Shown here in pieces: positions 8,261 through 54,656 of a DNA stretch of 64,000 nucleotides. The stretch spans positions 80,379-144,378 of the forward strand of contig MCGO01000106.1 of the NCBI GenBank assembly GCA_002104985.1, in the 5' to 3' direction. Position 1 is the first letter of the stretch. Every line of letters begins with the position of its first letter. This DNA is from Rhizoclosmatium globosum (Eukaryota > Chytridiomycota > Chytridiomycetes > Chytridiales > Chytriomycetaceae). The translations under genes were made by a program, and so were the position numbers. Below the pieces are notes generated by a model. The model saw nothing but the letters and a program-made list of their open reading frames with translations. It searched no databases and had not been told where the DNA came from.

Positions 8261-10109
8261 ATGCACCTCAATTCCCTACTGCCCCCCGTCTTCAAGCGTC
8301 GCTCTTTCAAACGAATTATTCCACTCTTCATAACAGCAATCGTTCTCGGCCTCGCAAATGTCTTCGGCTTCTGTTCTCCTGTTTTCAATGGGCTTATACT
8401 TCAACCAAAATGCCCAGAGTGGAAGCCTTTCTCGTTAAATACCATCCACGACGTAACTTGCCACGAATTAGACCTAGAAAGCGGTCAGTTTGGGGATCCT
8501 TTTGCAGCATCTGTTTTCAAGGTTTCGCAGTGTATGTCACGATGGCATTGCGGACAAGGATACTTCTTGGTTCAGCGACGAGATGAGGAACTGTGTAAAA
8601 AAATGCTTCGTAAAGAAGGAAAGATGAGAAAAGTCATTTTCGACGATGAGTTGAATCGGAAACTTGTTGAAGATGTTGGACCAGTATGTAACTTTTTGAT
8701 AGTATAATCATATCAATGGATTACATAATAGGACTTTTTCTATCTCGCTTTCGATGGTCCTGCTCGAGTTGCGCCAATGACTTGGACACATGCTGGTAAT
8801 TGCAAAACACGACACCCTTTCCATCTCGTCAACCCTGGAAACTACACTGTATCTCTTGAATGGACTCATACCAACTTCAGCGCCGTAAACGAAATTGATT
8901 TGAAAGGGATTCATCCATCGCCAGTTGGCAAGGGTCGTGATGTGTTGAGGAATATGAAGCTTGAAGTATGTCCTCAGTGTCCACAACTACGCTCGTCTGT
9001 TGTGCGTCATAATTCACGAAACAGTCCTATTTGCAGTAGAACTAGACCAATACAGGGAGTCTTTCTGAGCACGGAAGGCGACAGTGGGGCAATAGTATCA
9101 GACTCGTTGCGAGTGAACAGAACGCAATCGCCTTATGTCTGGATTCCGCTTGGTTGCCGTTTGGATCAAACATTTGACCAGCATCAGAACAATGCTTGCT
9201 TTGGGCTCAAATCCTCCCGATCGTTCTTGATGGTGGGGGATTCACATTCACACCGTTTCTGGGATGCTGTTGACAGACGCATTGTTGCAACTACTGAACC
9301 TTATATATTTGGGGAGAAGACAATATGGTAAAGCACAATAATCGTTGAATGAAACTGATGCAGATTTGAATAGGTATAATCATTACCAAGGACACGTAGC
9401 AAACACATACCACGCAAGCGGAAATAATTCTTTGTTTCTCGAACGAATTCGAACGGATGATGGGATTCCTACTAGCAAATTATGGCCCGATAATCGGACT
9501 ACCACGAGACAGAATGTAACATTTGAGTACCAATGGAGCCATCAATTGACTGAGATAACTGATGACCAAGTGTTTCAAAACGATGGCTTTGCCACACGGT
9601 TTGGGAGACAAAACATAGTTGTGCTTCAAACAGGTGCGTGGGCAGCATCAACTCTTGATCGCGATGGACAGTGGACTTTCAACGAATATCGCCTTCATAT
9701 TCAAACGCTTGCAGAAAAGTTATTGGAGATGCGAAGAAAGGATCCCATGGGACCTACGTTTGTATGGGCGTCAGCCACAAGTATGAAAATTCAAAGACAA
9801 GGGGAGGATACTGCGTATGAAAAAAGTGGCGATTGGAGGAATCCATATCGGATGAAATTATTTAGAGACGTTGCAAAGGAGGTCATGGAGGAGGCAGGAA
9901 TTCCTTATTTGGACTGGTTTGACGTTACGAACCACTTTATACGTGAGTCACCGGACGGATCCCATTTTACGAATCTGCCAGGTATGATGTTTTCTAAATA
10001 TATGCAGTTCCAAGTCTGACTAAGAAGGAGAGCAGCAACGGATGCTGTTGTAGATGATTTGTTACACAAGCTGAACATTGTGCGAAAGAAGAATGACATG
10101 TCGGGATGA
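8261..10109 (+). CDS. Type II membrane protein with PC-esterase (TBL-like) fold
   Basis: Four exons (8261-8683, 8732-9327, 9374-9981, 10036-10109) give 566 residues. After a short basic N-terminus (FKRRSFKRI) there is one hydrophobic signal anchor near residues 20-42, so the body should be lumenal or extracellular. The C-terminal half holds the SGNH-like elements of PC-esterase proteins: MVGDSHSHRFW (GDS serine) near residue 320 and SPDGSHFTNLP (Asp-x-x-His) near 535. Related plant TBL/ESK1 proteins O-acetylate wall polysaccharides and some fungal members act on glycans. The exact substrate here cannot be read. Several N-glycosylation sequons (NYT, NFS, NRT, NNS, NVT) fit a secretory protein. 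Confidence 0.7.
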
Positions 10110-24768: not shown

Positions 24769-24914
24769 ATATCATGGATTGGTAGAGGCACTGATTGATA
24801 ATAATACAGTACATTTCCAAAGAATGCGTTAAAATCATACTAGTAGATTTGTCCACGGGTGTAATAAGAATTACAAAGGAAAGAGTGGAAATCGTGGAAT
24901 TGGTTATCAAAATC

Positions 24915-26084
24915 ATGGCAGACACAACAAACCTCAGCAGCCTTCTTAACGCCCACGCAACAGAGATTGCGCAGCTCCGAGAACGAATCAGCGATGTGAT
25001 TGATCCATCCAAGCACGATGAAATCTGGCTGCTGCGTTTCCTTCTCTCAAACAAGACAGTCGATGCAGCTGAAACAGCGTGCCGATTCACCATCAACTGG
25101 TACAAGACCCATGCAGCTGTAATCGAAACAGTCATGGCTGGAGGAAAGGCTCCGAAAGAGGATGAGATCAATATGTTTCAAGTTACTAACTTCCACAAGG
25201 AAACAACCAAAGGCGAACCAATTTTCTACGTACGAGTTGGTCTCTGCAACAACAAGGGACTCATGGACAATGTATCCCACGATGACTTTGTCAACTTTAC
25301 GATCTTCAACCGAATGAAGGCTCTGGAAGCTTGTGCCAAAGCCACCAAGGAGCAGAACAGACTCGTCAAGATCATCACCGTCATTGACATGCAAAACTTT
25401 AATGTCACCCGTGGAAACGATTTGCGCTTCTTCAAAGCTATCGGTGAAAGCTCGAAAATCAGTGAAAAGATGTTTCCACAGTTGTTGGGGAGATCTGTTA
25501 TGGCAAATATGCCTTCAACCCTTCTGTTCTTATTCAACACCATCTTCAAGCCGTTATTGTCTAAAAAGACGCAGGAGAAACTGGTCTTTTGTCCCGGCAT
25601 TGTATCAGGCAAGCCTCTTGATGCATGTCCATACATTGCTCGAGTTCTCAAACCTGAGGACGTTCCGTCGTTTATTGGAGGAAAATGTAACTGTAAAGGA
25701 GGGTGCATCAGTGGAATTCCAAATTACCAAACTGTTCCAGTCAATGCAATCTCGGATTCTGGGCTCATGAACATTACAGTCCACGCGCGGTCTACGGAAA
25801 CAGTGGAAGTTCCATTAGCAAAAGGAGATCAAATCAAGTACGAATTCAAAATTTCTGAGAAACAGGATATCAAGGTTCAGATCGTATTTCGCCCAAACGG
25901 CGGGACAAAGGAAGTCGAAGTTGTTGCGTTGCGGTCTATTGAGGAGAAAGATGGAATCATCAGCGGGAGTTTCGTTGCATCAACCGCAGGAATTCTTGTC
26001 AAGACGTTTGATAACTCCTTTTCCTGGGTCAGAGCCAAAAACGTTTGGTATAAACTTGAGCAAGTCGAAGACAGAGAAGAATAG
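24915..26084 (+). CDS. SEC14-like CRAL-TRIO protein with GOLD-type C-terminal domain
   Basis: One exon of 389 residues starts at ATG 24915 (MADTTNLSSLLNAHATEIAQ). An N-terminal helical region (HDEIWLLRFLLSNKTVDAAE) is followed by a CRAL-TRIO lipid-binding domain: KIITVIDMQNFNVTRG, RSVMANMPSTLLFLFNTIFK and PLLSKKTQEKLVFC. A beta-rich domain near residues 275-385 resembles the GOLD module of SEC14L proteins (VEVPLAKGDQIKYEFKISEK, FDNSFSWVRAKNVWYKLEQV). These proteins transfer phosphatidylinositol or other hydrophobic ligands between membranes. A Cys-rich turn (GGKCNCKGGC) between the domains is unusual. The protein is probably cytosolic. Confidence 0.87.
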   Translation: MADTTNLSSLLNAHATEIAQLRERISDVIDPSKHDEIWLLRFLLSNKTVDAAETACRFTINWYKTHAAVIETVMAGGKAPKEDEINMFQVTNFHKETTKGEPIFYVRVGLCNNKGLMDNVSHDDFVNFTIFNRMKALEACAKATKEQNRLVKIITVIDMQNFNVTRGNDLRFFKAIGESSKISEKMFPQLLGRSVMANMPSTLLFLFNTIFKPLLSKKTQEKLVFCPGIVSGKPLDACPYIARVLKPEDVPSFIGGKCNCKGGCISGIPNYQTVPVNAISDSGLMNITVHARSTETVEVPLAKGDQIKYEFKISEKQDIKVQIVFRPNGGTKEVEVVALRSIEEKDGIISGSFVASTAGILVKTFDNSFSWVRAKNVWYKLEQVEDREE

Positions 26085-32718: not shown

Positions 32719-33594
32719 TTAGTGGGATGCGACTTCTTTCTTCTTTGCTTCCACAGCGGCATCAACGTCCTTCATAAATACATCATGCTCCTTTTGAATC
32801 TTGTCTTCAATCTTTTTAACTTCATCCGTTGACTTGATCTTGAGTTTCTTGAGATCAACACGTGCAGTTGCACGTAAATCTCTGATCTGAGTACGATGCT
32901 TTTCGGCAATTTGAGAAATAGATTTGATGATAGTTTCGCGATGTTCTGCGCTCATTCTAGCCATACTGTTAGTTTTCGTTTTTCGAACACGTTTGTGACA
33001 GCTTACTTTGGAACTGTGACTTTCAGTGTTGATCCGTCAACTTTCTGAGGACTCAGGCCAAGCTTTGCATCACGAATAGACTTCTCAGCGAATGGAGTAT
33101 ACTATTCCACAGCCACTAATAAATGACTGCTCAACGTTCAACCCAAAAACTCACGTCTTCATCGTTCAACACAACCATCAAAGTATGAGCATCCTTTGTA
33201 GAAATCTGAGCAATCTCAGATAGAGCAACAGCACCCTTTCCCTTCTTCTCCATCACAACCTGCACCTTATCCAAAAGGGCTGGGTTCGCCCTTCCCAAAG
33301 TGATGCTGGTGCTCAAGTTGTCCTTCAAACGATCAATACAGCTTCGCATCTTTAGCTGCATCTTGGACATGTCGAATTCAGGTGGGGAACATCGTTATCA
33401 TCGTCCTTTTGCTGTTTGCCGCCTTTGGACTTTGACGCAGGTTCCTTCTTTTTGGCGGCATAGAAGCGGATTGATGGAGCGGTATTGATTGAGAGAAGTG
33501 GTGGACGGGATACGACGAAGTGTTGAAGTGGCTGAGACCGCAATGACAGCTGATGCGTGAATTGAACACACCGAAATGACAATGATTGGAACAT
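32719..33594 (-). CDS. RRF1: Mitochondrial ribosome recycling factor
   Basis: Three coding segments (33155-33594, 33007-33101, 32719-32965) encode an N-terminal presequence rich in Arg, Ser and Leu (MFQSLSFRCVQFTHQLSLRS), a Lys-rich linker, and the recycling-factor core: LKDNLSTSITLGRANPALLD, YTPFAEKSIRDAKLGLSPQK and SAEHRETIIKSISQIAEKHR. The protein releases mitochondrial ribosomes from mRNA after termination. In the linker the frame breaks at 33384-33387: adding one C to the coding-strand run restores VPPPEFDMSKMQLKMRSC. The second intron is only 41 nt. Confidence 0.87.
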
Positions 33595-33862: not shown

Positions 33863-34935
33863 ATGGCACGCAAAGCTATTAACGTCGACGATCTATTGAA
33901 AGACTTGGACATGAGTCTGAACGAGCTCAACGAGGGTGCTGATGGTGAGTAGGATCACACTGGGCTGCATGGGGCACCTTGTTAATTGATCGCTTGCAGC
34001 CGCAGCCGCCGTCGCAGCGCCGACAAAGAGTGGATTGCATGATGCCCTCAACTCTTCCTCTCACGGAGAGGATGATGCATATGGTGACTTTTTGGATTCT
34101 TATGGTGAGGAGCAAGTGGAAGCTGTGAGTCAAAGTGCCTGAACCTTCTTGGATAAGCACCATTCTGACACTTGACTTTCTTTAGCCTGTGATCCCTACT
34201 ATTCCAGTCCCTTCTGTCGTAGCGCCACCTGTTCAATACAGACAACCCCAACCCCTACCAGCCACACCTGTTTCATATCCACAGTACCCTCCACCCACAA
34301 GAAAACCTTTACCCTCCAGACCACCATCTGCATCCACTAATGCGCCTGGTATGGTTCAAAGAATGAACTCAAACCCCGGTGTCAATGGACAGATGAACGG
34401 ATTCGGTATGGGAGCAGGACCTTCCGACAACCTCAGACGTGAGTTTATTGCCATTACACCACGTGTATCCAGTCAAGGCGGTGCTGAAATGGAACGCCGC
34501 GGGTCAACTTCCACAACCATGACCTCGATGACGTCAGCATCAGCCAATTCACCTGAAGTGTCAGACGAAGTCCGGTTGCTTCGTGAACAGCTGGAACGGG
34601 CAAAGATTGAATTGCTGGAGCTTGCACAACAAAAGGCTTCCGTTCCAACATCCGTGCAATCGATGCCAGCTAGAAAAGAATACGAAGAATTCCAGGGCGT
34701 TAACAAACCAATGGCTGCGCCGAAATCAAAGGGAGACGCTTCATCCATCACTTCTGGAAAGAGTGGGAAGAGTGCCAAGAGCACAAGTAGTGGCTGGTTT
34801 GGAATGTCGCGTTCCAAGTCAAACTCCAATGTTAAAGCAGACGGAAGTGCGAAACCAAAGAAGAAGGAGAAGGAGAAGGACCTTCCACTGTATTTGACCA
34901 CCTCCATGACCCTTGGAGCAGGAGGTCGATTCTAA
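33863..34935 (+). CDS. Tandem family member A: LD-like motif, disordered middle, GAGGRF tail
   Basis: Three exons (33863-33944, 34000-34124, 34186-34935) give 318 residues. Exon 1 encodes a short amphipathic helix VDDLLKDLDMSLNELNE and ends in phase 1. The middle is Pro-rich (PPTRKPLPSRPPSAS, a possible SH3 ligand), followed by a short coiled coil (EVRLLREQLERAKIELLELA) and YEEFQGVNKPM. The C-terminal part has SSITSGKSGKS, GWFGMSRSKSNSN, a Lys-rich stretch and the ending LPLYLTTSMTLGAGGRF. No catalytic domain is seen. It is the first of seven plus-strand relatives running to 43490. A scaffold or adaptor role is inferred only from architecture. Confidence 0.8.
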
Positions 34936-35112
34936 CTTTACATAGACAATTTCATTCGAGTTTCTTTCCTTTTCTACGCAATTAAAGAAGGTTTCCTTTT
35001 TTGACTTTGATCAGAATCCACCAAATAGAATTTTCACCGTTGGTCACGTGACAGGGAGACACCCTCTTGCATCTTTGACCAGTCAATTTGTGATTCTGAA
35101 ACCATCCCTTCA

Positions 35113-36966
35113 ATGGCGAGCAACTTGGACAATCTCCTCGCTGATCTTGAGAACGAGTACGAAGGTAATCAGCTTCATCTATCGTGGGGCCAAGAGAATG
35201 GGTCTGACACTTGTGACAGGTGCTGCTGTTACCAGCTCTGTGAAGCGAAACACCACCACCAGATCAGTCAAGGTCGCAATTGAAGATTTGGAGTCGGATC
35301 TGTATGACTTCCTCGATAATTACGGCGACGAGGAAGAAGAGGAAGTGCCAGCGGGGGATGCCCAATTTACTGTCGACACCTCCAAGTTCCTCTCAATTCA
35401 AGAGCCCCAGGTACCTTCATCCGTGTCAACACAACCATCAAATGAACCTGTCGCTGCTGGAGCCGCAAAGAAGTTGGAGGATTTGGATTTTAAGTTTGAG
35501 GGAGAGGATGACGTTGTGACAGCGGTAGTGGAGCAATCACAACCTGCCCCTGTTGCTGAATCTATTGAACCATTGCAGAATGAGCAGCAGAGAGAGGTGG
35601 AACAAGTCGCTCAAGCTGACAACACTGATAACGATGCCGACCACTTCCCACCAGTCAAAAACCTAATTAATCACTTCACTGCCATTGCTGTTGCTCAGGA
35701 TAAGCGGGTGGAGGAAGCGCCTGTTCCGTCTTCTGTTGCTGCCAGCATTAACGAGGAAGTCTTTGTCGATGCCGTACCTGTAATTGAGGAAGTTGTATCT
35801 GCTCCTGTTCCCGTCGTCGCCCCAGTTGTCGCTCCAGTGGAGGAAGTTCCTGTTGCTGTTGAGGAAGTCGTTGAGGAAGTTGCGGTTGAGCAAAAGGTGG
35901 AGTACGATTTCATTCATGCGGCAGAAGGTGCCGCTGTCCAGGGCGAAGAGTTGTCTGTCGTCTCTGGAAACGGGCTTGAACGGGCGGAATCTAAGTATGT
36001 CATTCATCAGGAGGTTCCTCAACCTGTTGCTGTTGTCGGAACTGTGAAGTACGAGGAGCAGGCCTCTGTCGTTGTTGATGCAAAGTCTGCTGTTGTTGAG
36101 AGACAGGAGGTGATTGAAGAGCCTGTTGCGCCACTCGTGCAACCGCAAATTTCTGAGCGAGGATCTTCAACAAAGGAGCGATCAATGTCCATCTATTCGG
36201 AGTCCATTCAGTATATCTCGAAAAGAGACTCGGTTTTGGATAGTGATATCCAAGTCCAAATTATTCGTCTGCGTGGACAAATCGACCGTACTCGTATCGT
36301 ATGTAGTTCTTTTCAGTTAATATCTGATGGCTAACTGCTTGTTTCCAGCTTATCAACGAACAACTCCGTCTGAGAAATATGCCACCTCTCGAACCAGGTC
36401 AATACTCTCTGCCAGCCATTCAACCATCAAAACGAGGATCTATTATCTCAACAGTCTCAAACGCTGTTTATTCAGCTATCACTAGCGTGACTGGACCTGC
36501 TTCTCCAACCACCCCAAGCCCAGCCACTCCAGGCCCTACTGCCCAAGACCTTGAAATTCAGCGTATGCGTGAAGAACTCGAACGAACCAAGCGTGAAATT
36601 GCTGACAAGCAGAAGCAGACCATTACCCCCTACACACCTGCTCCCCCACCAGCAAACGTTGCGCGACCATTACCACCCCAAGAGCAATCCGATTTCCCAG
36701 GCGTTGACAAGGTGATTGAATACAAGAAACCAAGCAAGAACAACGACAGTGCCTCTATCACCTCTGGAAAGAGTAACAAGAGCAACACCGGTTCTAGTTG
36801 GGGTCTGTTCCGTTCCAAGAGCACAAAGTCGATGAAGGAGGCTGCTGATGCAAACGACAAGCCTGTGAAGGAGCGTAAGAAGAGCATTAAGCCTAACGCT
36901 GACAAACCACCACCACTCTACATGACTTCTCCACACATGATGATGGGTGGTGGTGGTCGTTTCTAG
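35113..36966 (+). CDS. Tandem family member B: LD-like motif, PEVK-like segment, GGGGRF tail
   Basis: Three exons (35113-35164, 35220-36298, 36349-36966) give 582 residues, the longest member. Exon 1 encodes MASNLDNLLADLENEYE, very close to the LDxLLxxL pattern of paxillin LD motifs, and ends in phase 1. Residues near 60-330 are acidic and Val/Glu/Pro-rich (IEEVVSAPVPVVAPVVAPVE). Then follow DSDIQVQIIRLRGQIDRTRI and LINEQLRLRNM PPLEPG, a coiled coil (IQRMREELERTKREIADKQK), DFPGVDKVIEYKKP, SASITSGKSNKS, GLFRSKSTKSM and the ending YMTSPHMMMGGGGRF. The distal half is the close relative of member C. Confidence 0.8.
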
Positions 36967-37092
36967 ACGACTTGTATTACAGTACAGTAGATGAAATAAA
37001 GTTTATGTTCTTTTTCGATTAAATTTTGAAACCATTTGCAGCAATTTCGAATAATTTTTGACAACCAAAACAGCACGCGCCAAATTTCAGAT

Positions 37093-37857
37093 ATGCCTGG
37101 GGAAGCACAACAAGCGGCAGCCGTGGATAGAGCCCTGTTAATGAAGTCGAGGACGTTTTCTGAGGAGTCTGATGCGAATCGTCTGGGATCTGAGACTGAT
37201 TCCGTGCTGGATAACGACACTCAAGTACAGATCATTCGGCTGCGTGGCCAAATAGAGCGTACTCGCATCGTAAGTGACTGTTCAAAATTCTTAGTCGAAA
37301 CTTCTGACTTCAACTCGATCTATGTCTAGTTGATCAATGAACAGCTGCGATTGCGAAATATGCAACCGTTGGAGCCAGGTCAGACTACGTTGCCAGCCCC
37401 ATCCAAGAGAACATCAATTATTTCTGCAATAACAAGTGCGGTTGGAAGCGCTATTTCAACCGTGACTGGAGTGACTTCTACTCCTGGCACTGTCAATGGT
37501 TCAGCACCATCTTCTCTGTCAAAAGAACAAGAGATTAAGCAGTTACAAGAGGAACTCAATCGTACCAGAAAAGAAATCACTGGAATTCCACAGACCCCAA
37601 CTCTCTTCACACTTCCATCTGCTCAGAAGCAAGAGTTTCCTGGAGTGGACAAGGTTATCGAATACCAGCACAAGAAGACCGAGAACAGTGATAATGCGTC
37701 TATATCATCGGGAAAAAGTAATAAGAGTGGGTTTGGATTGTTTCGCTCCAAGAGCACCAAGTCTCTGAAAGAAGGTGATATTGCTTCATCAAAGACAGTG
37801 AAGCCAGTGAGAGAGCGCAAGAAGAGTATTGTGTCAAAGTCTCCATGGGCGGCTTGA
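37093..37857 (+). CDS. Tandem family member C: short copy without LD-like exon
   Basis: Two exons (37093-37269, 37330-37857) give 234 residues. The sequence begins just before the block shared with member B (SVLDNDTQVQIIRLRGQIER, LINEQLRLRNMQPLEPGQTT), continues with a coiled coil (IKQLQEELNRTRKEI), EFPGVDKVIEYQHKK, NASISSGKSNKS and FGLFRSKSTKSL, and stops after SPWAA without the GGRF ending. The intron inside LRGQIERTRI|LINEQ is at the same site and phase as in member B. It looks like a partial duplicate of B lacking the first exon and the tail. An AG directly before the ATG (37090) leaves room for an unseen upstream exon. Confidence 0.7.
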
Positions 37858-37968
37858 GTTTTATAAGTTTGAATATAGATTTGTTGTGCTTTTGTGATAT
37901 CCTTTCGTGGAGATCCAAAAATCAATTTGGGATCGTTTGACATTGAGACCCATTGCACAGTGCACACC

Positions 37969-39322
37969 ATGAGCAACACGATCAATGCGCTGCTGAATGA
38001 GCTGGATGAGTTCTTAATTGATTCACCAGGTAAGGCGAGGTATTGCAGCCTTTACTTAAAGCGGGTACTCAATTGAGCCATGAGCAGAGGCAGCCCCGCC
38101 AGCCACTTCTTTTAAAGCCGAAGCCGCCGACGACGCCTACGACATTCTCTCGGCTTATTCCGAAGACACAGCCACCGAATCCGATGCACCGGAACCCGCC
38201 GCGGACGCCCGGCTCAGCAGTTCAAGTGCCTCCATTCCTCTGCCGCCATCGCCCTCGATTCCTCGCCCAACAATTAAACCACTTTTGGCCGAAAAGATGC
38301 GCCAGGATACGATCCAGGAACAGCCTCTTTCACAGCCATCGAATCGGAATGTGAGTTGTGATCACATATCAATCGCACTTTGTTTATTAAACACACACAC
38401 ACAATCCCCTTATTATCATGCAGAGACTTCCAAAGGGTATGAACATGCCGCCAAGTCCTGTGGCAATCAGGTCGAGCATGCTGCAGCAATCTATGCCTCC
38501 CCCAATCTACCTCAGCAGAACAATGTCTTCCAATGGCGCCCCTGCTCCAAACCAAACATTTAACATGGCTCCTGTCAATTCTGGAGCACCTTATGTTCGA
38601 TCTGGCAGGGCCAGTTTCGACAACAATTTGCCAACTCCCAAACGAGGCTCATTTATGCCACCTCCCTCTGTTTACGAAAATGCTCAACAGCAGCAATTTG
38701 CGCGACCAATGTCTCGCACATCCGCGCAATCTTACCCTGATACAATCCAAGAGAGAGAAGAACTGGATTCTCTGCATCACCATTTCCACCAACAACAACA
38801 ACTGCAACTACAACAACAAATGGAGCAGCAGTACGAAAATGAAGAAATCATGGCTCTTCGTGCAGAACTCGAGAAAACAAAGATGGTGAATAACACAATT
38901 TTCCTCAAGGGATATACAGTTGCTGACATCATTTGATTGCAGGAACTTAGCCTTCGTGCAGAATTAGAGCAAGCAAAGAAGGTATTGAGTCTTGACTGAT
39001 TTGATTTTTTTAAAATATCAATGCTAAATTCCGTCTCCAGGAAATAAGTGATCGTATCAGGGAAAATGAATTATTGTTACTGAAAGCTCAAGCTAAAGCA
39101 GCTGATTTGAAGAGCGACACCACATCCTTAAAGTCAAAAACATCGTCAATTGGAACAGAGCAATCGAACTCGTCAAAGAAGGGGCTAGGCTGGCTTGGTC
39201 GTTCGAAAAGTACGGGATCAGCTAAACCAGCAAAGAAGAAGGCTGAAAAAGATGAAAGTAATGTACCGTTGTTCCTTGCGAACCCTTACATGATGCAAAT
39301 GGGTGCTGGTGGTCGTTTTTAA
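37969..39322 (+). CDS. Tandem family member D: LD-like motif, Gln-rich coiled coil, GAGGRF tail
   Basis: Five exons (37969-38029, 38088-38350, 38424-38885, 38943-38981, 39041-39322) give 368 residues. Exon 1 encodes TINALLNELDEFLIDSP and ends in phase 1, as in A, B, E, F and G. A Pro/Ser-rich region (SIPLPPSPSIPRPTIKPLL) and a Gln/His-rich segment lead into a heptad-like coiled coil split over small exons (EEIMALRAELEKTKM, ELSLRAELEQAKK). The tail has SLKSKTSSI, GLGWLGRSKSTGSAKPAKKK and ends VPLFLANPYMMQMGAGGRF. No catalytic domain was seen. Confidence 0.8.
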
Positions 39323-39466
39323 AGGAGTTGGTCAAGGGATGGATGTCATCACACTGGATGATATATGGATAAACTGTTGAAGCGTTATGTACACAAACCT
39401 TTCAATAAAAGCAACAGTTTCTTAGTCAAACAGAGAACAAAAAGCATCAGAAAATTCTTCCTCAAA

Positions 39467-40626
39467 ATGCCTGCAATCGATATGGACAGTCTCCTGCGGG
39501 AGTTGGATGCTTCTCTTGATGAATGCACTACAGGAAAAGGTTAGTTGCATAGTTTCGCTGCTTCAAGCTTCTTGTTTTGGCGAACCATGGCACTACCTTC
39601 AAAGCCGCCGCCACTTACGATATAAACCGATTCGCTGACTCTCTTCCTCATAAACATAGCGCCCCTGCCTCAAGTAACTGTTGCGCATCTCCTCAGCTTG
39701 AACACGGCCACTGTTTCAGGATTGATGGATGTGATATCACCGGCAGACAAACCAACAATGGCATGGAATCTGCGGTTCCTGGTCCTTACTATGGGTGCTA
39801 TCTTTATGTTTGAAAGCAATGGGCCGGAGGAGATGCCTGTAGATGTTGTGCGATTGAATGTGGGAACGGAAGTGGCGTCAACTGGTGTTCCGGGTGAACC
39901 CTTAGCTTTCACTATTGCAAACAATGAAACCCCTGACGAGAATTGGATGTATGTATCTACGACCTTAGATCTTTATTGGATTACTTGGAGGTGACAACTT
40001 AACTAATCATTGCTCACAAATCAAGTTTGAGAGCCAAAACCAAGACATCAAAAGATACATGGATAGATATGATTGCTCGTTTTTCTGTTACTGGCCCAGA
40101 TGAGCAAGATTACGATGAAGGTGCAGATGAGATTACTCTCGAAAGAACTCTTTCTTCAAGCAGGGTAACTTCAGATTACATTGCTTCTTATGATATATTA
40201 ATCCTGTGTCTTATTCAGATTGCAAACTTCCAAGGAGGTCTCCATATTCCAAACAGGCAAAACAGTTTGAACGCTGCACCCCAGCCTATCTTCATCAACA
40301 GGTCTCTTGCGCAACCATACAGCTCGTCTCCAAGCAGCTATAGTTTCGATCGCCGCGACTCTGAAGCCCACTCTCACGTTTCAAGCGAATTCGACAATTA
40401 CTACGGCAATAGAGTATCCGACAGCCCATCGTTTGGTAGTTTCCCCAAACAACAAAGTGTTGGGATCCCTGGCGGTGGTATCTTTGGGTCATTGGGAGAC
40501 ACAGAGCCTGACTTATCTCGCCTTGGGCGATCCAAGTCCAAGACGTCGTCGACTACTTCAGGGGATGCTGTGAACAGAAAGAAGAATACGAAGGCACAGA
40601 TTTCCAAGTCGTTTATCCAGTTTTAA
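39467..40626 (+). CDS. Tandem family member E: LD-like motif plus PH-like domain
   Basis: Exon 1 (39467-39539) encodes MDSLLRELDASLDECTTGK and ends in phase 1. A following exon leads into a PH-like domain (VSGLMDVISPADKPTMAWNL, RFLVLTMGAIFMFESNG, then after an intron at 39949-40025 LRAKTKTSKDTWIDMIARF). The distal exon (40219-40626) is Ser/Tyr-rich and ends with LSRLGRSKSKTSS and a basic tail. The frame between exon 2 and the PH segment is out by one at the C run 39662-39665; deleting one C joins them. PH domains of this type often bind phosphoinositides, but specificity cannot be read here. Confidence 0.72.
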
Positions 40627-40845
40627 ATGATTTTGAAGTCCAGTCAAGCCCTGCTATCAATGTCAATGGCATTCAATCTCATCTTCCTTGTACCTTTTGT
40701 CTGTTACTCTACTTACTCCCTGGGCATGCAATCCCTAATGTGAATAAGCCTCTCTTTCTATCCGTCTTGCTCTTTCCTTCCTTCCATCGCTTAATGAAAA
40801 ATAAATCTGGTTCTAAATCTCCTCGAAGCCCAGAAACTTGTTTAA

Positions 40846-42192
40846 ATGGCAACGAAAGTTGACTCCTTGCTCATGGCACTTCGCAGCTCATTCGAGGAGT
40901 TTATGGACCATGAAGCTGGTGTGTAGTGTACCCAATTCCCCACTTTGTTAGTCAATTAACTCATTCGCTTGCTTCAGATCCCGAGATAACGCCAGAAGTC
41001 AAGCAACTGCTGGAAGCATACAAGCAGAAACATACCGCGAAAGTAGCGGATCTGCTGAGTGAGTCTAATCGAGAGTACCATATGATCTTGGCTGATTTTG
41101 CCTTCCTCAACAGACAAGACTGATGCAACATCTGGACAGCTGTACATTATCCCCGAAGCTCGATACGAAGATACTGCCAAACTTCAGTCGCTGCCTTGGG
41201 CTCCGAGGTTCATTGTGATGTGTCAAGGCAGCTTGTTCCAATTTGCGGACCCAAAACCAACGAATGAAGCTATAGACTACTTTGACCTGTCGGAAAAGAC
41301 ATTTGTGCTGCCGAAGCTGCAGCGAATCAATGTACCACTGGCGTTTGAGATCGTATCAACTTTGCCGACTGGGGAAACCAAGAGCTGGTTGTGAGTGGCT
41401 CCTTGTCTCCTTATGTTCAACTAGCTTTATTAATCGATGTTGTTGAATAGGTTACGTGCAAACAATCTTGCGACAAAGAATATGTGGGTGGAGCTTATCA
41501 ACAAGGCAATTGCCGAAGTTTCATTTGAGTGCAGGCGGCTCCAAAGCTCAAAAAGATCAACAGCAGCACGGAATTCGCACTGGAGACGTATTTAAAAGTC
41601 TGGTGGCGGGAAAGAATCTTCAGTGTATTCCTTCGAAACCTTGAAATCAAACGCCAATCTATCCCCTTTGGAACCAACAGACCCAGCTCCACCCGTCCCC
41701 AAGATTCCTTGGGAAAGATTTCATGGAATAGAGCAGCCCTTTTCAGCTCCGGTTTTGTCCGAGAATCCACCTTAGATTACGCCTCCCCAGCCGAAATGGA
41801 AATCCAGCTTGCAACAAAACTCAACGACTCAAAGCGAGTCCGTGGGAAAAAATCCACACTCATGCGGAGAAATTCAGATTCCTACAGCGAGCACCGTCGA
41901 AGCTCGAGTTTAATGGACGAGGATGAGCATTGGAAGTCTATTGGTGTTCCACCACGTGAATGCAGATGCAGTTTGCGATGGACGAGGCGATGGCACGGGC
42001 GTTGGTTGAAAAGAAAATGAAGGAACAGAGGAGACAGGCTGTTATTGTGGAAGCTGAGAAAGTGATCATGAGAGTGTTTTGTCTGGGGGAGTTGAATATA
42101 CGGGTCGTTCAATGTCGGAACTGCCTCGAAGACCAAGTACTGCGCAAAGTACTACGTTTTCCAGGTTGAAGGGATGGTTTGGATTCAAGTAA
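40846..42192 (+). CDS. Tandem family member F: LD-like motif plus PH-like domain, frame-broken tail
   Basis: Exons 40846-40918, 40978-41058, 41114-41390 and 41451 onward encode VDSLLMALRSSFEEFMDHEA (phase-1 junction as in relatives), a linker helix, and a PH-like domain with LPWAPRFIVMCQGSLFQFAD and KSWLLRANNLATKNMWVELI. After about 41525 coding potential continues but switches frame several times (NSSTEFALETYLK, DPAPPVPKIPWERFHG, KKSTLMRRNSDSYSEHRRSS, MDEAMARALVEKKMKEQRR). It ends FSRLKGWFGFK at the stop 42190-42192, the same GWFG element that closes members A and D. Assembly indels are the simplest reading; true decay of the tail is possible. Confidence 0.6.
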
Positions 42193-42467
42193 ACAATTTA
42201 AATAGAGTCATTTAGCATATTAAGAATGAAGGGTGGTTTTATGTTGATGGGTTGTTGCGCGTGGTTCATGTCAGGAACTGTCAGTGATAAGATGCAGAGC
42301 AATGCTTGGCGAGTGCCTCCCTCCATCAACTCACCAAATTGGAAAATTTGAGGCTGTGAGGCTCTGTTCGACTTGTAACCCTTCAACAAAAAACTTCTCA
42401 AACGATACTACATTACTTGGTTCAATATGTCGCGCGTACTTACCCGCCAGAATACCGAAGTTGAAAC

Positions 42468-43490
42468 ATGATGAACAACCTACAAATTGATGGTGAGTTT
42501 ATGGTTTTGGGTGGACTTCTTGTTCTGACGCCGAATTCAGCAGACAGACGGTCTAGGCAAGGCCGCAGCCTTAGCAAACGAAGACCCTCAATAACAAACC
42601 ATGAAGACCACGGTAACGTAACAATTGGTGCATTGTTAGGTAAGAGTGATAGATATCTACCACCCAATCTAATACACTATCAACAGAGCAACCCAGTGCT
42701 CTCAGTGGACAACTTGATCTTTATGTTCCTCCTACTCGCCGGGGCGAAGAAGGTCTTCTCGTTGAGCGGTTCTTTATCTTAGCGAATCGCACTCTGTACA
42801 TGTTTGTCACGCGATCAACTTTCAGCCAACCTCTCGCAAGCTTAGACCTTACGCCGAATTCCTACATTGTCGCTGATATTAAAGGGGCAACTGAGTTGGC
42901 CATGGAACTGGTTGGAGAAATCGGGCTGGTCAATTCAAATCTTGGATGTAAGTCCACCTCTCTTGCTATGCCAAAGTAAATAATAATTCTCTGAAACCAG
43001 CTTATGCGCAAGAAACATGGCAACAAAGAGTCTCTGGGTTGACATGATCAACCATTCCATCACAGCCAGTGTGAACGAAGTTGCAAAGTTCTCATCTGCG
43101 CGCAGCGTTCCACGCATTAACACATATGCAATGAGTCGAACACAGTCTTATGGTGGATCGGACTCGTATGTAACATCCCCAGTCTACGCCGATAAACGCG
43201 GTGAAGCAAACACGAGACTATCTCAGCGACAGATCCAAGAAGCACAAGCTCTGGATTTATTCCAACAAGGCCTTGAGGTCCAATACAATAGTCACAGACG
43301 TGAATCAGAGTCTTCATTGAACCAAGTGGCAACTCCGACAAGTGATCACAGTCGGTCCGTCGAAGACAACATCTTTTTTGAAGCGTCAAGAAAGATGAAT
43401 AGCGAATACTCGACATCGTCGACGGAGTCTGCTGAGCTTAAAAAGACAGTGAAGCGCCGTGTTAAGACGGCTATTATGGGAATTTTGTAA
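42468..43490 (+). CDS. Tandem family member G: PH-like domain protein
   Basis: Exons 42468-42492, 42541-42639, 42687-42947 and 43001-43490. Exon 1 codes only MMNNLQID and ends in phase 1, the family junction. A basic Ser-rich segment (SRQGRSLSKRRPSI) precedes a PH-like domain (ALSGQLDLYVPPTRRGEEGL, VERFFILANRTLYMFV, then LCARNMATKSLWVDMINHSI). The last junction at 43000 is one base short; one extra T restores GSLCARNM. The tail is Ser/Tyr-rich and ends KKTVKRRVKTAIMGIL, without the GWFG or GGRF elements. Homology to E and F is clear from the order of the PH elements and the intron pattern. Confidence 0.68.
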
Positions 43491-43722
43491 ATAATGTATC
43501 TGAAAGTGAGCTTCTATGAATGTATAGTTAGTAAATAAACAATGGCTTCATTTAATGCGAATATATTGCGTGTTTCTTCCTCAAGACGAAAAGACATAGC
43601 GTGCAATCACTAATGCGGCATTCTTTTGAGTGAGTCCACTTGTTGAATTTCTGTGGAGATGAAGATCCGTTAATGAGAATGAGCGCTAAAAATGGAACGG
43701 AGTCAATTTGATTCCTTTCAAA

Positions 43723-44277
43723 ATGGCCGCCATTCCTGCAGTCTGTCTACCCTTCAACTGCGCGGGCACTTGCTTCTCCTGTTTCCGCAATGGAGCGTGC
43801 TTTAACTCTGAACAGCATTGCAACTTTGATTGTTCTGGAACGTGTGTCCCAACTGCCCTCGATATCAGCAGTACCTGTGCATCACAATACCCTGGCTCCA
43901 CGGCTTGTCAGTTGGCATGCAGCAAGTGCATAGCTCCATCAGCGAATGAAATCGCGACGAGCCGGTTCTTGTCTTGCGACGAGACGGCTGGTACGGCTAT
44001 CTGTAGCCGCGGAATGATGGGAAGTATGCTTTCAAACACGACGATAGTTTTGAAGGATTTGAATCCTGATGGGTTGCCTGTGATTGTCCAGACAACTACA
44101 ACTACTTCAAGCTCTATCGAATTCGTTACTATAACCAAAGCAAGCCAGGGGGCAGCAAGTGCACAAGCAACAGCGATGAGTCCAGTTGCCGTTCTTCTTA
44201 CTACCACTAAGAGTGCTGCTGTTGGCTGTAGTATTAGGGTATTGAGTGTAATGTTTGTTTGCCTTCTCGTTCTATAA
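43723..44277 (+). CDS. Cys-rich repeat-family protein 1 with hydrophobic C-terminus
   Basis: A single exon of 184 residues starts MAAIPAVCLPFNCAGTCFSC. It carries the family core HCNFDCSGTCVPTALDI...TCASQYPGSTACQLACSKC, then FLSCDETAGTAIC, VLKDLNPDGLPV and a Thr/Ser-rich stretch, ending in a hydrophobic segment (SIRVLSVMFVCLLVL). That end resembles a GPI-attachment or tail anchor. There is no N-terminal signal peptide, which is odd for a Cys-rich Thr/Ser-rich protein. Three related copies lie at 51.2-54.7 kb. Function unknown. Confidence 0.8.
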   Translation: MAAIPAVCLPFNCAGTCFSCFRNGACFNSEQHCNFDCSGTCVPTALDISSTCASQYPGSTACQLACSKCIAPSANEIATSRFLSCDETAGTAICSRGMMGSMLSNTTIVLKDLNPDGLPVIVQTTTTTSSSIEFVTITKASQGAASAQATAMSPVAVLLTTTKSAAVGCSIRVLSVMFVCLLVL

Positions 44278-50362: not shown

Positions 50363-51244
50363 ATGCCTTGTTTTGAGACTCTTTTTGACTTGTTTTTTTC
50401 CAGGTGACGAAGTTGTTCAGACATTTCGCGAAAGAGGGAGAGAAATGCATGAAGTGAAGGGATGATTTATCAGTGAAAGTAATTTCTTTCCTTTGATAGG
50501 TTCTCTGTACCCACAGAAAAACTAGGTGCTCCTCAGAAAGAAGAGAAAGGACAAAGAAAGGAGAGTAAAAATAACGTAAAGCAGTAGATTGAAAGACGTT
50601 TAAACACCTCCTACAAAGCAAGGAGAGTGTATTGTTCCGATAAATAATCATAGCACATCATATTCTCCGCACGGAATACCCTGTCGTTTTGAAGGATGCA
50701 AAAAGGCGGCATCTGTTGGGCACTCTCATGGATGTGATTGTGCAAAGTGTATTCAGTAGTTTATTTCAATTCTTAGATTTACATAAAACACATCTTCGAT
50801 TGTTCTCCAGAATCACCAATTGCTTTTAAACATGCGAGACGTTTACCACCAGGTAAGCAGCCACGGCAACAAAGAGGTCGGGGAAAGTTGGGGGTGGGGG
50901 GAGCACTGACTCGAGCGAGTTTAATTCCTGAAATTGAAGGGACGAGATAATGTCTTTCAACACAATTTAATCGGTAAACTACTTTTTTTTCTCGCTCGCT
51001 CGTTCGAGTATTTACTTAAATTAATTTAGAAAGACCCTTAACCATGGGTATATTGCCAAGATTTCGAGCATTCGCATAATCGTGAATGACAGAGACAGGA
51101 GAATCTTAACAGTGTATCGTCTCGGAGTTCATCTCCACATTCAAAAATACGGAGGAAGAGATGGAGATCCGTAACGGCAACTTGGACCACAAGACATTTG
51201 TAAATTGGCATTCAATTTTTCGTTGGTGAAATACTCAACCAACA
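50363..51244. promoter_or_regulatory. Upstream region of Cys-rich copy 2
   Basis: No gene was found. The stretch 50574-50606 (GTAAAGCAGTAGATTGAAAG and on) recurs at 52282-52314 about 1.7 kb downstream. The block 51062-51186 recurs before copy 3, showing that a unit including promoter and gene was tandemly duplicated. Confidence 0.6.
51121..51170 (+). promoter_or_regulatory. Conserved upstream element of Cys-rich family, copy 2
   Basis: Two boxes are shared by the family: CTCGGAGTTCATCTCC at 51121 and AGAGATGGAGATCCGTAACG at 51158. They lie about 75-125 bp before the ATG at 51245. The boxes contain the partly complementary words TTCATCTCC and GGAGATCC/GAGATGGA, so they may also pair as an imperfect hairpin. 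Confidence 0.5.
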
Positions 51245-51824
51245 ATGGCCGCCATTCCAGCTGCTTGTGCTAAAAATGCCCTGCCAGACTCTAGCTGCTT
51301 CGGTCCCTGTTTCACTTGCTATGTTGGAGGAGGGTGCAAGTTGTCCAAGTCAAACTGCGACTTCAGCTGTTCTGGCACTTGTATTCCAAAGGCTATCGAA
51401 GTAGATTCCTCCTGTATTGAAAGATACCCAGGATCTCAACTCTGCCAAGTTGCATGTGCCGACTGCATATCTTTAAATGGTGAAATGTCAGTCGCTAAAT
51501 TCTTGTCTTGCGACGCTGCCGCTGGAACGGCAATCTGTGCGACTGGGGGAAGAGCTCCAGAGCCTTTCACCGACTGGAAAAACCACACTACTGTGTTGAA
51601 GGATATGAATCCAAAGGGATTGCCTGTTGTTGCCCGAAGGTGTAACTTACACTGCGACATACACTGCAACAACAGCCACCACGACCGTCGTGTATACTAC
51701 CGTCGCTAGGTCCTCCTCATCTTCGGCTGTTGCGACTTCTAGCGTTACGACTTCGAAAATGATCAGCGGAGTGAAAGCCCAGTCCGCAGGACTTTTCGCT
51801 TTGGTATTGGCGGCGCTTCTTTGA
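51245..51824 (+). CDS. Cys-rich repeat-family protein 2 (frame-broken near Thr-rich segment)
   Basis: The frame starts MAAIPAACAKNALPDSSCFG and contains the family core NCDFSCSGTCIPKAIEV, CIERYPGSQLCQVACADC, FLSCDAAAGTAIC and VLKDMNPKGLPVVA. At 51636 an extra G relative to copy 3 (CCCGAAGG versus CCCAAGG) throws it out of frame to a stop at 51709. The sister frame carries the Thr/Ser-rich stretch (TYTATYTATTATTTVVYTTV) and the hydrophobic end SAGLFALVLAALL to 51824. Either an assembly error or a real mutation removing the tail. No signal peptide is seen. Confidence 0.75.
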
Positions 51825-52857
51825 ATGTTATGCACCATTTCAGTCATATAACCGGTTTCCATTTTATAACCTATGCTTTATAGAAGAAAGCCATGTATTG
51901 AAGACACTTATCAAGGAACATAAATACAATAATAAACAGAATCCTCAAAACCAATTCCCGTCTTTGTCACATTCTTCACATGAATTGACGTCGCCATTGT
52001 CATCCGTCGTCATCATCACATTGCAATTCGTTCTGAGGGGTTTCCAACCTGATAAAAATGATACCTATTCGTTCGTTGATATAGCACTCGGTTATTCTGT
52101 GATTAAGCATCATTTATGAAGGTGTGCAGAGATTGAAAAGGAGATGAAAGAAGAAGAATATCTATCAACAAATAACGGAATCGAAATTCGAACAACATTA
52201 AACAATGGGCCGAAGATAATATGTAGAGTCTAAGTTTTTATGCCCTTTACGGCATCCTTGCCTACACAATAATTAAAACAACGTAAAGCAATAGATTGAA
52301 AGACGTTTTAACACCTTCTACCGACACCGGAACACGTCCAGAAGATTCCCGTCTATGGAAAATGACATTCTTTTATGACCCTTGTGCTGCAAACCAATCA
52401 TTTCATTTCCAAATGAGAATACTTGCCAGACTGTCAAAATACTCATTTATGAGACAGCTTACTCCTTACATTGTTGTTGTATGAATATGCATTTTTACAC
52501 AAAGGCTGCATTTATGAGGAGTTCGATTCATTATGATTTTTCGGATCTAACAAGGAGCATTTGAGCATTCATATAATAGTGAATAACGGAGAGACGGACG
52601 AATCTTGCAGTGTATCATCTCGGAGTTCATCTCCATATTCAAAAACACAAAGTTTTAGAGGCCACTTTGCAACCCTTTCCGTGTTGTCAAATGTACGTAG
52701 TTCGGCCCCACGATGGCTCTTATTCCTAAACCCTGGGGTTTTGAGCACCAAAGTATATGTAATGTGGTGAGGAAGAGATGGAGATCCATAACGGCAACTT
52801 AGCCCACAAGATATAAATTGGAATTCAATTTCTTGTCGGTGAAATACTCAACCAACA
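51825..52857. promoter_or_regulatory. Intergenic region with promoter of Cys-rich copy 3
   Basis: No gene was found. The region repeats parts of the sequence upstream of copy 2 (52278-52314, 52561-52645) and downstream of copy 3 (52060-52190 resembles 53650-53780). The conserved boxes are at 52619 (CTCGGAGTTCATCTCC) and 52771 (AGAGATGGAGATCCATAACG), here separated by about 110 bp more than in copy 2. A TATA-like GATATAAATTGG lies at 52811, 47 bp before the ATG. Confidence 0.55.
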
Positions 52858-53432
52858 ATGGCCGCCCTTCCAGCTGCTTGTGTTAATAATGCCCTGCCAG
52901 GCTCTACTGTTCCAGTCCCTGCTTCACTTGTTATAGAGGAGGGTGCCAGTTGTCCCAATCAAACTGCGACTTCGACTGCTCTGGCACTTGTATCCCAAAG
53001 GCTATCGAAGTACAGTCCTCCTGTATTGAAAGATACCCAGGATCTCAACTCTGCCAAGTTGCATGTGCCGACTGCCTTTCTTTCAATGGCGAAATGTCAG
53101 TCGCTGAATTCTTGTCTTGCGACGCTGCCGCTGGAACGGCAATCTGTGCGACAGGAAAAAGGATGCCAGAACCTTTCACCAACTGGAAAAACCACACAAC
53201 GGTGTTGAAGGATATGAATCCAAAGGGATTGCCTGTTGTTGCCCAAGGTGTAACTTACACTGCGACATACACTGCAACAACAGCCACCACAACCGTCGTG
53301 TACACTACCGTCACTAGCTCCTCCTCATCTTCGGCCGTTACTACTTCTAGCGTCACGACTTCGAAAATGTACAGTGGAGCGAAAGCCCAGTCCGCAGGAC
53401 TTTTTGCTTTGGTTTTGGCGGCGCTTCTTTGA
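52858..53432 (+). CDS. Cys-rich repeat-family protein 3 (frame-broken near N-terminus)
   Basis: ATG 52858 opens MAALPAACVNNALPGS. Compared with copy 2 one base is missing near 52908-52910 (TCTACTGTTCC). Restoring a base there would give the expected run of Cys residues and join the open frame from about 52911 to 53432. That frame has NCDFDCSGTCIPKAIEV, CIERYPGSQLCQVACADC, FLSCDAAAGTAIC, VLKDMNPKGLPVVAQG, a Thr/Ser-rich region and SAGLFALVLAALL at the end. The copy is over 85 percent similar to copy 2 by eye, so the duplication is recent. Function unknown. Confidence 0.75.
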
Positions 53433-54101
53433 ATGTTATACAGCCATATTCAGTCATATTACCGGTATCCATTTTATAACCTATGCTTTATAGAAGAAGG
53501 TCATTTATTGAAGAAACTTATGAATGAATTACATACCATAATAAACAGAATCCTCAAAACCAACCATTCCGTCTTTATCACATTATTCACATATGAATTG
53601 ACGTCGCCATTGTCAGGGATTTCCAACCTCTCATCATTTGACAAACAATGATGCCAATTCGTTCGTTGATATAGCACTAGGTTATTCTGTGATGAAGCTT
53701 CAGTAATGGAAGTGTGTAGAGATTGAAAATTGAGTAAGGAGAAAGCTGAAAAAAGGAAATGAATATCTATCAACAAATAAACAGCAAATCACCTCGGAGT
53801 TTAATCTCCGAATTCAAAACGGCATAGGTTGGAGAAATCAAATTGAGTCGGCTATTCAGTCTTCTTTTCGCATTCTTAAATGCATATCATTCCCTTTTCT
53901 AATTCTTAAATACAACTCTTCCTACAATTACCACCATTCTTACAGCATCATTTCAATTGAGCACCAAAGACAATATAATTGGCACTGACAAGTGGGTAGC
54001 GAAGAGATGGAGATCCGTATTTTAAGAGCGGCAGCGCGGCTTGTACCAAAAAAGGATATAAATTGCACCCATTCTGCCATCGTAGAAATACTCAATCAAC
54101 A
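53433..54101. promoter_or_regulatory. Intergenic region with promoter of Cys-rich copy 4
   Basis: No gene was found. The conserved boxes appear in diverged form at 53794 (CTCGGAGTTTAATCTCC) and 54003 (AGAGATGGAGATCCGTATTT). A TATA-like GATATAAATTG lies at 54056, 46 bp before the ATG at 54102. The first 130 bp and 53650-53780 are homologous to the regions after copy 2. Confidence 0.55.
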
Positions 54102-54656
54102 ATGGCCGTTCTTCCATCTGCTTGTAATTTCTCTTTAAGTACCGCCTGTCTCACTCCTTGCTTGACTTGCTACCAAGGACTAGGAGGATGTTCGCTGTCT
54201 CAAAACAACTGCGACTTCAACTGCTCTGGCACTTGTATCCCAAAGGCTATTGAAGTATCGACCTCATGCACTGAAAGCTACCCAGCGTCTCAACTTTGCC
54301 AGGTTGCTTGTACCAAGTGTGGTTCTTTTGGGGGTGAAATGACTATTGCCAAGTTCTTGTCCTGTGATGCCCTCGCTGGAACGGCTTTGTGTGCGACTGG
54401 GGGAAGAGCTCCAGAGCCTTACGCCAACTGGAAAAACCAAACTTTGGTGTTAAAGGATATGAATCCCAATGGTTTGCCTGTTGTTGCTCAAGGTGTAATT
54501 TACACCGCGACTACGGCTACCACGAACGCCGGATACATCGCAACCGCAAGCTCCTCCACTGTGACTTCTGCTACTGTTACCACTTCAAACCTTTATAGTG
54601 GAGCAAAAACTCAATCCGCTGGGATTTTTGCTTTGATTTTGGCAGTGCTTCTTTGA
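54102..54656 (+). CDS. Cys-rich repeat-family protein 4 (intact)
   Basis: A single exon of 184 residues starts MAVLPSACNFSLSTACLTPC and continues NCDFNCSGTCIPKAIEV, CTESYPASQLCQVACTKC, FLSCDALAGTALC, PEPYANWKNQTLVLKDMNP. A Thr/Ser/Ala-rich stretch and the hydrophobic end SAGIFALILAVLL close it. Twelve or more cysteines are conserved in spacing with the other copies. The start is fixed by homology and by a TATA-like box 46 bp upstream. There is no N-terminal signal peptide, yet the C-terminus looks like a GPI or tail-anchor signal. Confidence 0.82.
   Translation: MAVLPSACNFSLSTACLTPCLTCYQGLGGCSLSQNNCDFNCSGTCIPKAIEVSTSCTESYPASQLCQVACTKCGSFGGEMTIAKFLSCDALAGTALCATGGRAPEPYANWKNQTLVLKDMNPNGLPVVAQGVIYTATTATTNAGYIATASSSTVTSATVTTSNLYSGAKTQSAGIFALILAVLL

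Follow-up and report, generated by a model that had tools for sequence, protein, structure and literature searches.

What do the clustered genes of a chytrid locus that begin with a common short helix encode? We analysed a stretch of 64,000 nucleotides (the window, on contig C9) from the genome of Rhizoclosmatium globosum (Chytridiales, Chytriomycetaceae), in which positions 33863-43490 hold seven plus-strand genes in a row, here called A to G. An earlier reading of this DNA, made by a model from the letters alone (the original prediction), had proposed these seven genes, and the exon models that we built confirm that they are real. Genes A-E have open frames throughout, with GT-AG introns of 50-120 bases. 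The genes and their LD motifs, named for the likeness of the helix to the LD motif of paxillin, are as follows.

33863-34935, plus strand: gene A; exons 33863-33944, 34000-34124 and 34186-34935; LD helix VDDLLKDL in exon 1, coiled coil LREQLERAK, GWFGMSRSKS, C-terminal GAGGRF
33884-33907, plus strand: LD motif of gene A
35113-36966, plus strand: gene B; exons 35113-35164, 35220-36298 and 36349-36966; LD helix LDNLLADL, acidic YDFLD helix, an invariant block that ends RTRILINEQLRLR, coiled coil, GLFRSKSTKS, GGGGRF end
35125-35148, plus strand: LD motif of gene B
37093-37857, plus strand: gene C; exons 37093-37269 and 37330-37857; paralogue of B without LD exon and without GGRF tail
37969-39322, plus strand: gene D; exons 37969-38029, 38088-38350, 38424-38885, 38943-38981 and 39041-39322; LD helix INALLNEL, GWLGRSKST, GAGGRF end
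37981-38004, plus strand: LD motif of gene D
39467-40626, plus strand: gene E; exons 39467-39539, 39660-39948, 40026-40164 and 40219-40626; LD helix MDSLLREL, PH domain, RLGRSKS, end SKSFIQF
39482-39505, plus strand: LD motif of gene E
40846-42192, plus strand: gene F; exons 40846-40918, 40978-41058, 41114-41390 and 41451-42192, the fourth with frame breaks in the window contig; LD helix VDSLLMAL, PH-type domain, end KGWFGFK
40858-40881, plus strand: LD motif of gene F
42427-43490, plus strand: gene G; exons 42427-42492 (or from 42468), 42541-42639, 42687-42947 and 43001-43490, with frame breaks in exon 1 and at the last intron; PH-type domain; exon 1 is the counterpart of the LD-like exon of the R. 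hyalinum protein P0020

The element that recurs along the cluster is an acidic amphipathic N-terminal helix with an LDxLLxxL-like consensus, found in A, B, D, E and F and, for G, in P0020. Such helices had been predicted for the first five genes, and a strict form of the pattern is indeed present in these five of the seven window models; gene C has no LD helix by the same pattern. When these proteins are shuffled, 0.07-0.5% of the versions show the strict pattern within their first 35 residues; of the 153 other window open reading frames that start with ATG and span 60 residues or more, one does. The original prediction claimed no helix for gene G and thereby overlooked a sixth: P0020, the G orthologue, begins MSRVLTEVETMMNALQID, where VETMMNAL has the LD spacing and matches the strict pattern. 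Exon 1 of gene G reads MSRVLTRQNTEVET in the window, another frame gives MMNNLQID, and by comparison with P0020 gene G likely encodes an LD helix as well. In A, B, D, E and F the helix is encoded by exon 1, which ends in phase 1 after 82, 52, 61, 73 and 73 bases, respectively; the short exon 1 of gene G also ends in phase 1. Exon 1 of gene C is 177 bases long and ends in phase 0, at the position of the second intron of B. A 32-base unit occurs twice (37013-37075) in the short gap that separates B from C, which itself has no LD exon.

Are the seven genes one family with parts in fixed order, as had been predicted? Within A-D, blastp with the low-complexity filter on finds 51% identity between B and C (E 6e-51), a match between A and B (E 0.003), and one between the tails of B and D (E 3e-4). 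Similarly, E matches F (3e-9), F matches G (2e-10) and E matches G (0.013), with F and G taken as joined pieces. The remaining gene pairs give E 0.12 or worse, or no match. The profiles of A-D and E-G align just over 13 columns, all in the LD exon, and not significantly so (E 0.098); the LD exon is therefore what the two groups share. As nothing else is common to A-D and E-G, we rejected the single seven-gene family. On sequence comparison A-G are two families, A-D and E-G, whose common element is an LD first exon followed by a phase-1 intron. Chance likeness of the two LD exons is disfavoured because they have this intron phase in common; common descent, exon shuffling or convergence may each account for it.

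The A-D proteins are mostly disordered, with a coiled coil and a K/S-rich RSKS segment. A GGRF tail had been given as a mark of the whole cluster and RSKS elements as a mark of A-F; the tail is confined to A, B and D, and the RSKS elements to A-E, since F ends SRLKGWFGFK. Profiles of B-type and A-type relatives match each other over coiled coil and tail (99.3% probability, E 1.4e-20). In the block LDxDxxVQxIRxxGQxxRTRILINEQLRLR the letters given are invariant in nine B/C-type sequences, and the block forms a confident helix (residues 355-386) in the AlphaFold model of P0003, the gene B counterpart in Rhizoclosmatium sp. JEL0117. Gene A has a counterpart in the R. globosum protein P0004 and a Siphonaria relative, P0012. 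A profile search with A-D found 17 proteins at E<=1; it scored the 7992 candidates with the most words in common, and more distant relatives may have escaped it. These relatives come from six genera, Rhizoclosmatium, Podochytrium, Obelidium, Siphonaria, Physocladia and Chytriomyces, all of the Chytriomycetaceae (one species per genus looked up). In Podochytrium two B-types have consecutive locus tags, on contigs of equal length; the tandem arrangement is therefore likely not confined to Rhizoclosmatium. Within the R. globosum genome, A-D relatives were found solely at this locus and its haplotigs. Our Pfam scans covered 12 window frames and eight relatives, and for A-D they returned no family above cut-off (FapA, GPHR_N, SMAP, Med28 and similar matches were weak and below it). 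The original prediction would have fallen if its genes belonged to unrelated known families or were alike in low-complexity sequence only. For A-D neither was found, no known family being matched and the homology of B and C holding despite the filter; E-G, by contrast, do fall into a known family, that of the PH fold. Annotation of the relatives goes no further than "hypothetical" or "PH domain-containing".

The PH-like domains that had been proposed for E, F and G are borne out in part. The blastp matches point to a common domain, and against the Pfam PH family (PF00169, cut-off 25.1 bits) P0021, the orthologue of E, reaches 27.5 bits; P0020, that of G (16.2 bits), and P0001, a short E model (14.8 bits), fall below. 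The database counterpart of E in R. globosum is BCR33DRAFT_715487. With full-length E-G, a profile search that scored 7998 candidates found three proteins at E<=10, all from Rhizoclosmatium. The AlphaFold model of P0021 (mean predicted local distance difference test score, pLDDT, 39) shows, at low confidence, a helix followed by seven strands and a further helix, compatible with PH secondary structure. For this model the best of 824 Foldseek matches has E 0.041, and the best 50 include PH domains and unrelated folds. A PDB sequence search gave best E values of 0.28 (query A2) and 0.15 (query A5).

Are the genes intact? Over the locus, the window contig C9 is 96.5-97% identical to contigs C79 and C68. 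We note that C68:177-187 kb and C79:458-468 kb are identical over 9930 bases and that C9 is a diverged third copy, as duplicated haplotigs would be. Elsewhere in the window, several stretches of 51061-53473 are 75-93% like one place in the other haplotig; this is a local repeat whose copy number may vary between haplotigs. Between C9 and C79 the locus contains 95 indels, 48 of them exonic. Genes A-E, open in the window, are broken in C79 when it is read with the exon bounds of the window; F and G have breaks in both haplotigs, with indels at different places, and exon 1 of G has no open frame in either. These breaks are what one would expect if the seven genes were decaying duplicates and their motifs relics. 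We consider this very improbable. Of the exonic indels, 38 of 48 are of one base, as assembly error gives; A-E are open in the window; and P0003, P0020 and P0021 are intact counterparts in other strains or species. Moreover, over 1687 codons of A-E, mismatches between C9 and C79 fall on the three codon positions as 18:9:72, and synonymous changes account for 68 of the 91 codons that differ, from which A-E appear to be under purifying selection between the haplotigs. Most frame breaks, including those of F and G, are best read as assembly errors.

Do LD-PH genes occur elsewhere in this genome? With the LD-PH part of F as query, two places came up beyond the locus and its haplotigs, one on C68/C79 (E 2e-4) and the other on C386 (E 8e-4). 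At the first, gene H (C68:413.7-416.2 kb) encodes MTQRNMDAIDALLRDLDSSLD in a phase-1 LD exon, then a PH-like stretch recognised by eye, and has an E-like end, GIKGGGIFG...KSFIQF. Its neighbour, gene I, has a PH-type domain with 33% identity to F and ends GIRGGGIFG...KMYIQF; no LD exon was seen in it. C386 carries nine PH matches between positions 787 and 18428 and a tenth, recognised by eye, near 11.7 kb; all three of the PH frames scanned lie above the Pfam cut-off. An LD-like helix, chosen by eye or by a looser pattern than the strict one used in the window, begins five of the seven C386 proteins whose N-termini were read (IEELLASL, LSALMDEI, LEDLLDSL, LDTLLNQL and LDDLMSAI); the other two, at 8820 on the plus and 14342 on the minus strand, have no such helix. 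The LDDLMSAI helix has no upstream Met in its open stretch. The IEELLASL exon is the one C386 helix seen with a phase-1 donor close behind, and its gene ends GAGSRF, resembling A and D. A reverse search with one C386 PH domain recovers gene E (E 0.0037), and a short helix before the PH domain (VAxLL...AT-SG; TLAxLQ...AT) is recurrent in E, F, G and the C386 genes. We set aside the PH genes of C112 and C148, which show no LD exon and, judged by eye, resemble PAK-type kinases that carry a PH. C112:350-364 kb holds three closely spaced PAK-like kinase genes with PH-like stretches, likewise by eye.

How far is the helix itself kept? Among 21 database relatives, 11 have the strict pattern within their first 35 residues, and several of these 11 are near-identical copies. 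Among the ten others, P0016-P0018 have MSMLLKDL, and we read P0005, P0006, P0007, P0009 and P0019 as N-terminally short or C-type models. In the AlphaFold model of P0003 an N-terminal helix spans residues 2-18 (pLDDT 78 and 66 per ten residues). Three things strengthen the LD reading: the helix is retained in orthologues, it has a phase-1 first exon of its own, and it recurs in two further gene clusters.

What partners could such helices find in this genome? On C334 the vinculin family (cut-off 38.1 bits) is matched twice, at 93.4 bits with four stops inside the match and at 50.9 bits over profile positions 676-836 of 852. I/LWEQ matches lie on C24 (170.8 bits) and C1 (76 bits), with smaller pieces on other contigs. 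The C1 piece also matches Talin_IBS2B (28.8 bits, cut-off 27), and FERM_M (30.0 bits, cut-off 23.8) lies about 2 kb upstream of it on the same strand. An RA piece (23.5 bits, cut-off 21) 3 kb further upstream may be part of another gene. The order and distance of these matches make it likely that C1:958.8-961.4 kb is a talin-like gene whose rod is short.

We propose that the locus is a two-family tandem cluster with a separate LD exon whose products are tethered to the membrane and, as adaptors, bring helical-bundle proteins of the talin/vinculin type to the cell cortex; we hold this tentatively, at a probability of roughly 45%. The original prediction had thought of a membrane or cytoskeleton scaffold, and such a system is plausible because the genome encodes vinculin and, in pieces, the FERM and I/LWEQ parts of a talin-like gene. 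First, the protein would be held at the membrane, in E-G by the PH domain and in A-D by a basic/aromatic K/S-rich segment (WFGxSRSKS). Second, the LD helix would pack into a groove between the helices of a bundle of four or five (the vinculin tail or the talin rod), and this docking would couple the membrane to actin without integrin. E-G, H and the C386 proteins would thus hold talin- or vinculin-type bundles at the membrane. The Ser/Arg-rich segments (RSKS, RRxS) may be kinase switches, and the coiled coils together with the invariant B block may multimerise the A-D group. The main uncertainty of the adaptor proposal is the identity of the partner.

A number of results weigh against it. Beyond the LD exon the A-D and E-G profiles have no significant relation. 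The Obelidium proteins P0011 and P0013 (two of the 21 relatives) have no LD at the modelled N-terminus. On the PH side, the window PH exons of E, F and G, scanned singly, matched no Pfam family; this locus is not among the 28 matches of a whole-genome PH search; gene H has no Pfam match, and gene I reaches 13.6 bits for PH, below cut-off; and the P0021 model has a low mean pLDDT and no Foldseek match at E<=0.001. On the partner side, an R8-like module may be missing because the C1 talin-like gene seems short-rodded. Talin_middle and VBS had no match in the genome, and since control genomes were also silent this does not show absence. FAT domains, the partner first suggested, find no support, as the one Focal_AT match in the genome has 16.5 bits (cut-off 23.3). 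Finally, a sequence of the LD type is also compatible with a nuclear export signal or an acidic activation helix.

Could the leucine-rich N-terminal helix then be such an export signal or activation helix, its LD likeness convergent? The spacing of its hydrophobic and acidic residues suits both classes. No DNA-binding domain was matched in the Pfam scans made, and in E-G the helix adjoins a PH-type domain, commonly a membrane module; this explanation seems to us improbable. A stronger rival keeps the helix as a true docking motif and assigns it a partner that is specific to chytrids or has no part in adhesion, such as a CCM3/STRIPAK-like FAT-H domain or a different helical bundle, in a cortical or secretory scaffold unrelated to talin and vinculin. 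The A-D relatives found are all Chytriomycetaceae, whereas PMC5042518 reports talin and vinculin homologues over a far wider range. The genome also has one match to PDC10_C (CCM3), sub-threshold at E 0.15, but it reaches just 17.7 of the 27.3 bits of the cut-off, and the genome does encode known LD readers, namely vinculin and a talin-like gene. We regard this alternative as rather unlikely.

To which known systems do the proposed adaptors compare? Like paxillin, they have an N-terminal LD helix and, in the P0003 model, a largely disordered remainder; B has the motif closest to paxillin LD1, which the Podochytrium relatives MASIDALLADLD and MASLDDLLADLD also resemble. Unlike paxillin, they have one N-terminal LD motif noted per protein and a PH domain or basic segment in place of the C-terminal LIM domains, none of which was matched in the Pfam scans. 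The MRL proteins RIAM and lamellipodin likewise have an N-terminal LD-like talin-binding helix, then PH. The E-G proteins differ from them in having no RA-PH tandem (no RA domain was matched in P0020, P0021 or P0001 by Pfam), in that their relatives were found only in Rhizoclosmatium, and in that talin binding by their LD-like helix is putative. The RIAM helix is LD-like in nature according to PMC4938799, which also gives the DLC1 LD motif as LDDILYHV, a like amphipathic acidic helix; the SAM and GAP domains of DLC1 named there have no Pfam match here. According to the same paper, talin R8 is bound by the DLC1 LD helix with a dissociation constant of 48 µM, by that of paxillin with 168 µM and by the RIAM helix with 3.5 µM. 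As for the PH family, the E orthologue and the three scanned C386 relatives lie above its cut-off and F and G are related to E; the G orthologue, I and H are below cut-off or unmatched, and the extra LD exon and the recurrent pre-PH helix set the group apart. Our best reading is that these proteins would work like RIAM or paxillin N-termini without belonging to those families.

PMC5042518 states that basal fungi encode talin, vinculin and paxillin to varying extent and have no integrin, FAK or Src, and calls the role of these scaffolds in them unclear. In a genome that has vinculin as well as a talin-like gene, LD-helix proteins with membrane modules offer direct candidates for this missing link. 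A broader and still less probable proposal, which we consider unlikely, is an integrin-free adhesion/cortex system in this chytrid family, in which LD-PH proteins (three clusters, tandemly expanded) and disordered LD proteins would replace integrin tails, RIAM and paxillin as membrane anchors of talin and vinculin. If the two-family reading is true, an LD helix is common to two otherwise unrelated protein types as a separate exon. Among the publications listed on LD motifs, talin, vinculin and paxillin in chytrids and fungi, we found no description of these genes, and in the main text of the R. globosum development atlas (eLife, PMC8887899) the words adhesion, vinculin, talin, paxillin, pleckstrin and BCR33DRAFT do not occur.

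Finally, we note some neighbours of the cluster in the window. Upstream lie a CRAL/TRIO match (24795-26081, 60.1 bits) and a ribosome recycling factor match (32719-32964, 51.7 bits). Positions 43690-44274 and 54000-54653 encode two similar-looking Cys-rich, possibly secreted proteins (NCAGTCFSC.., ACLTPCLTC..); neither has a Pfam match at E<=0.01, and the two possibly form one family.

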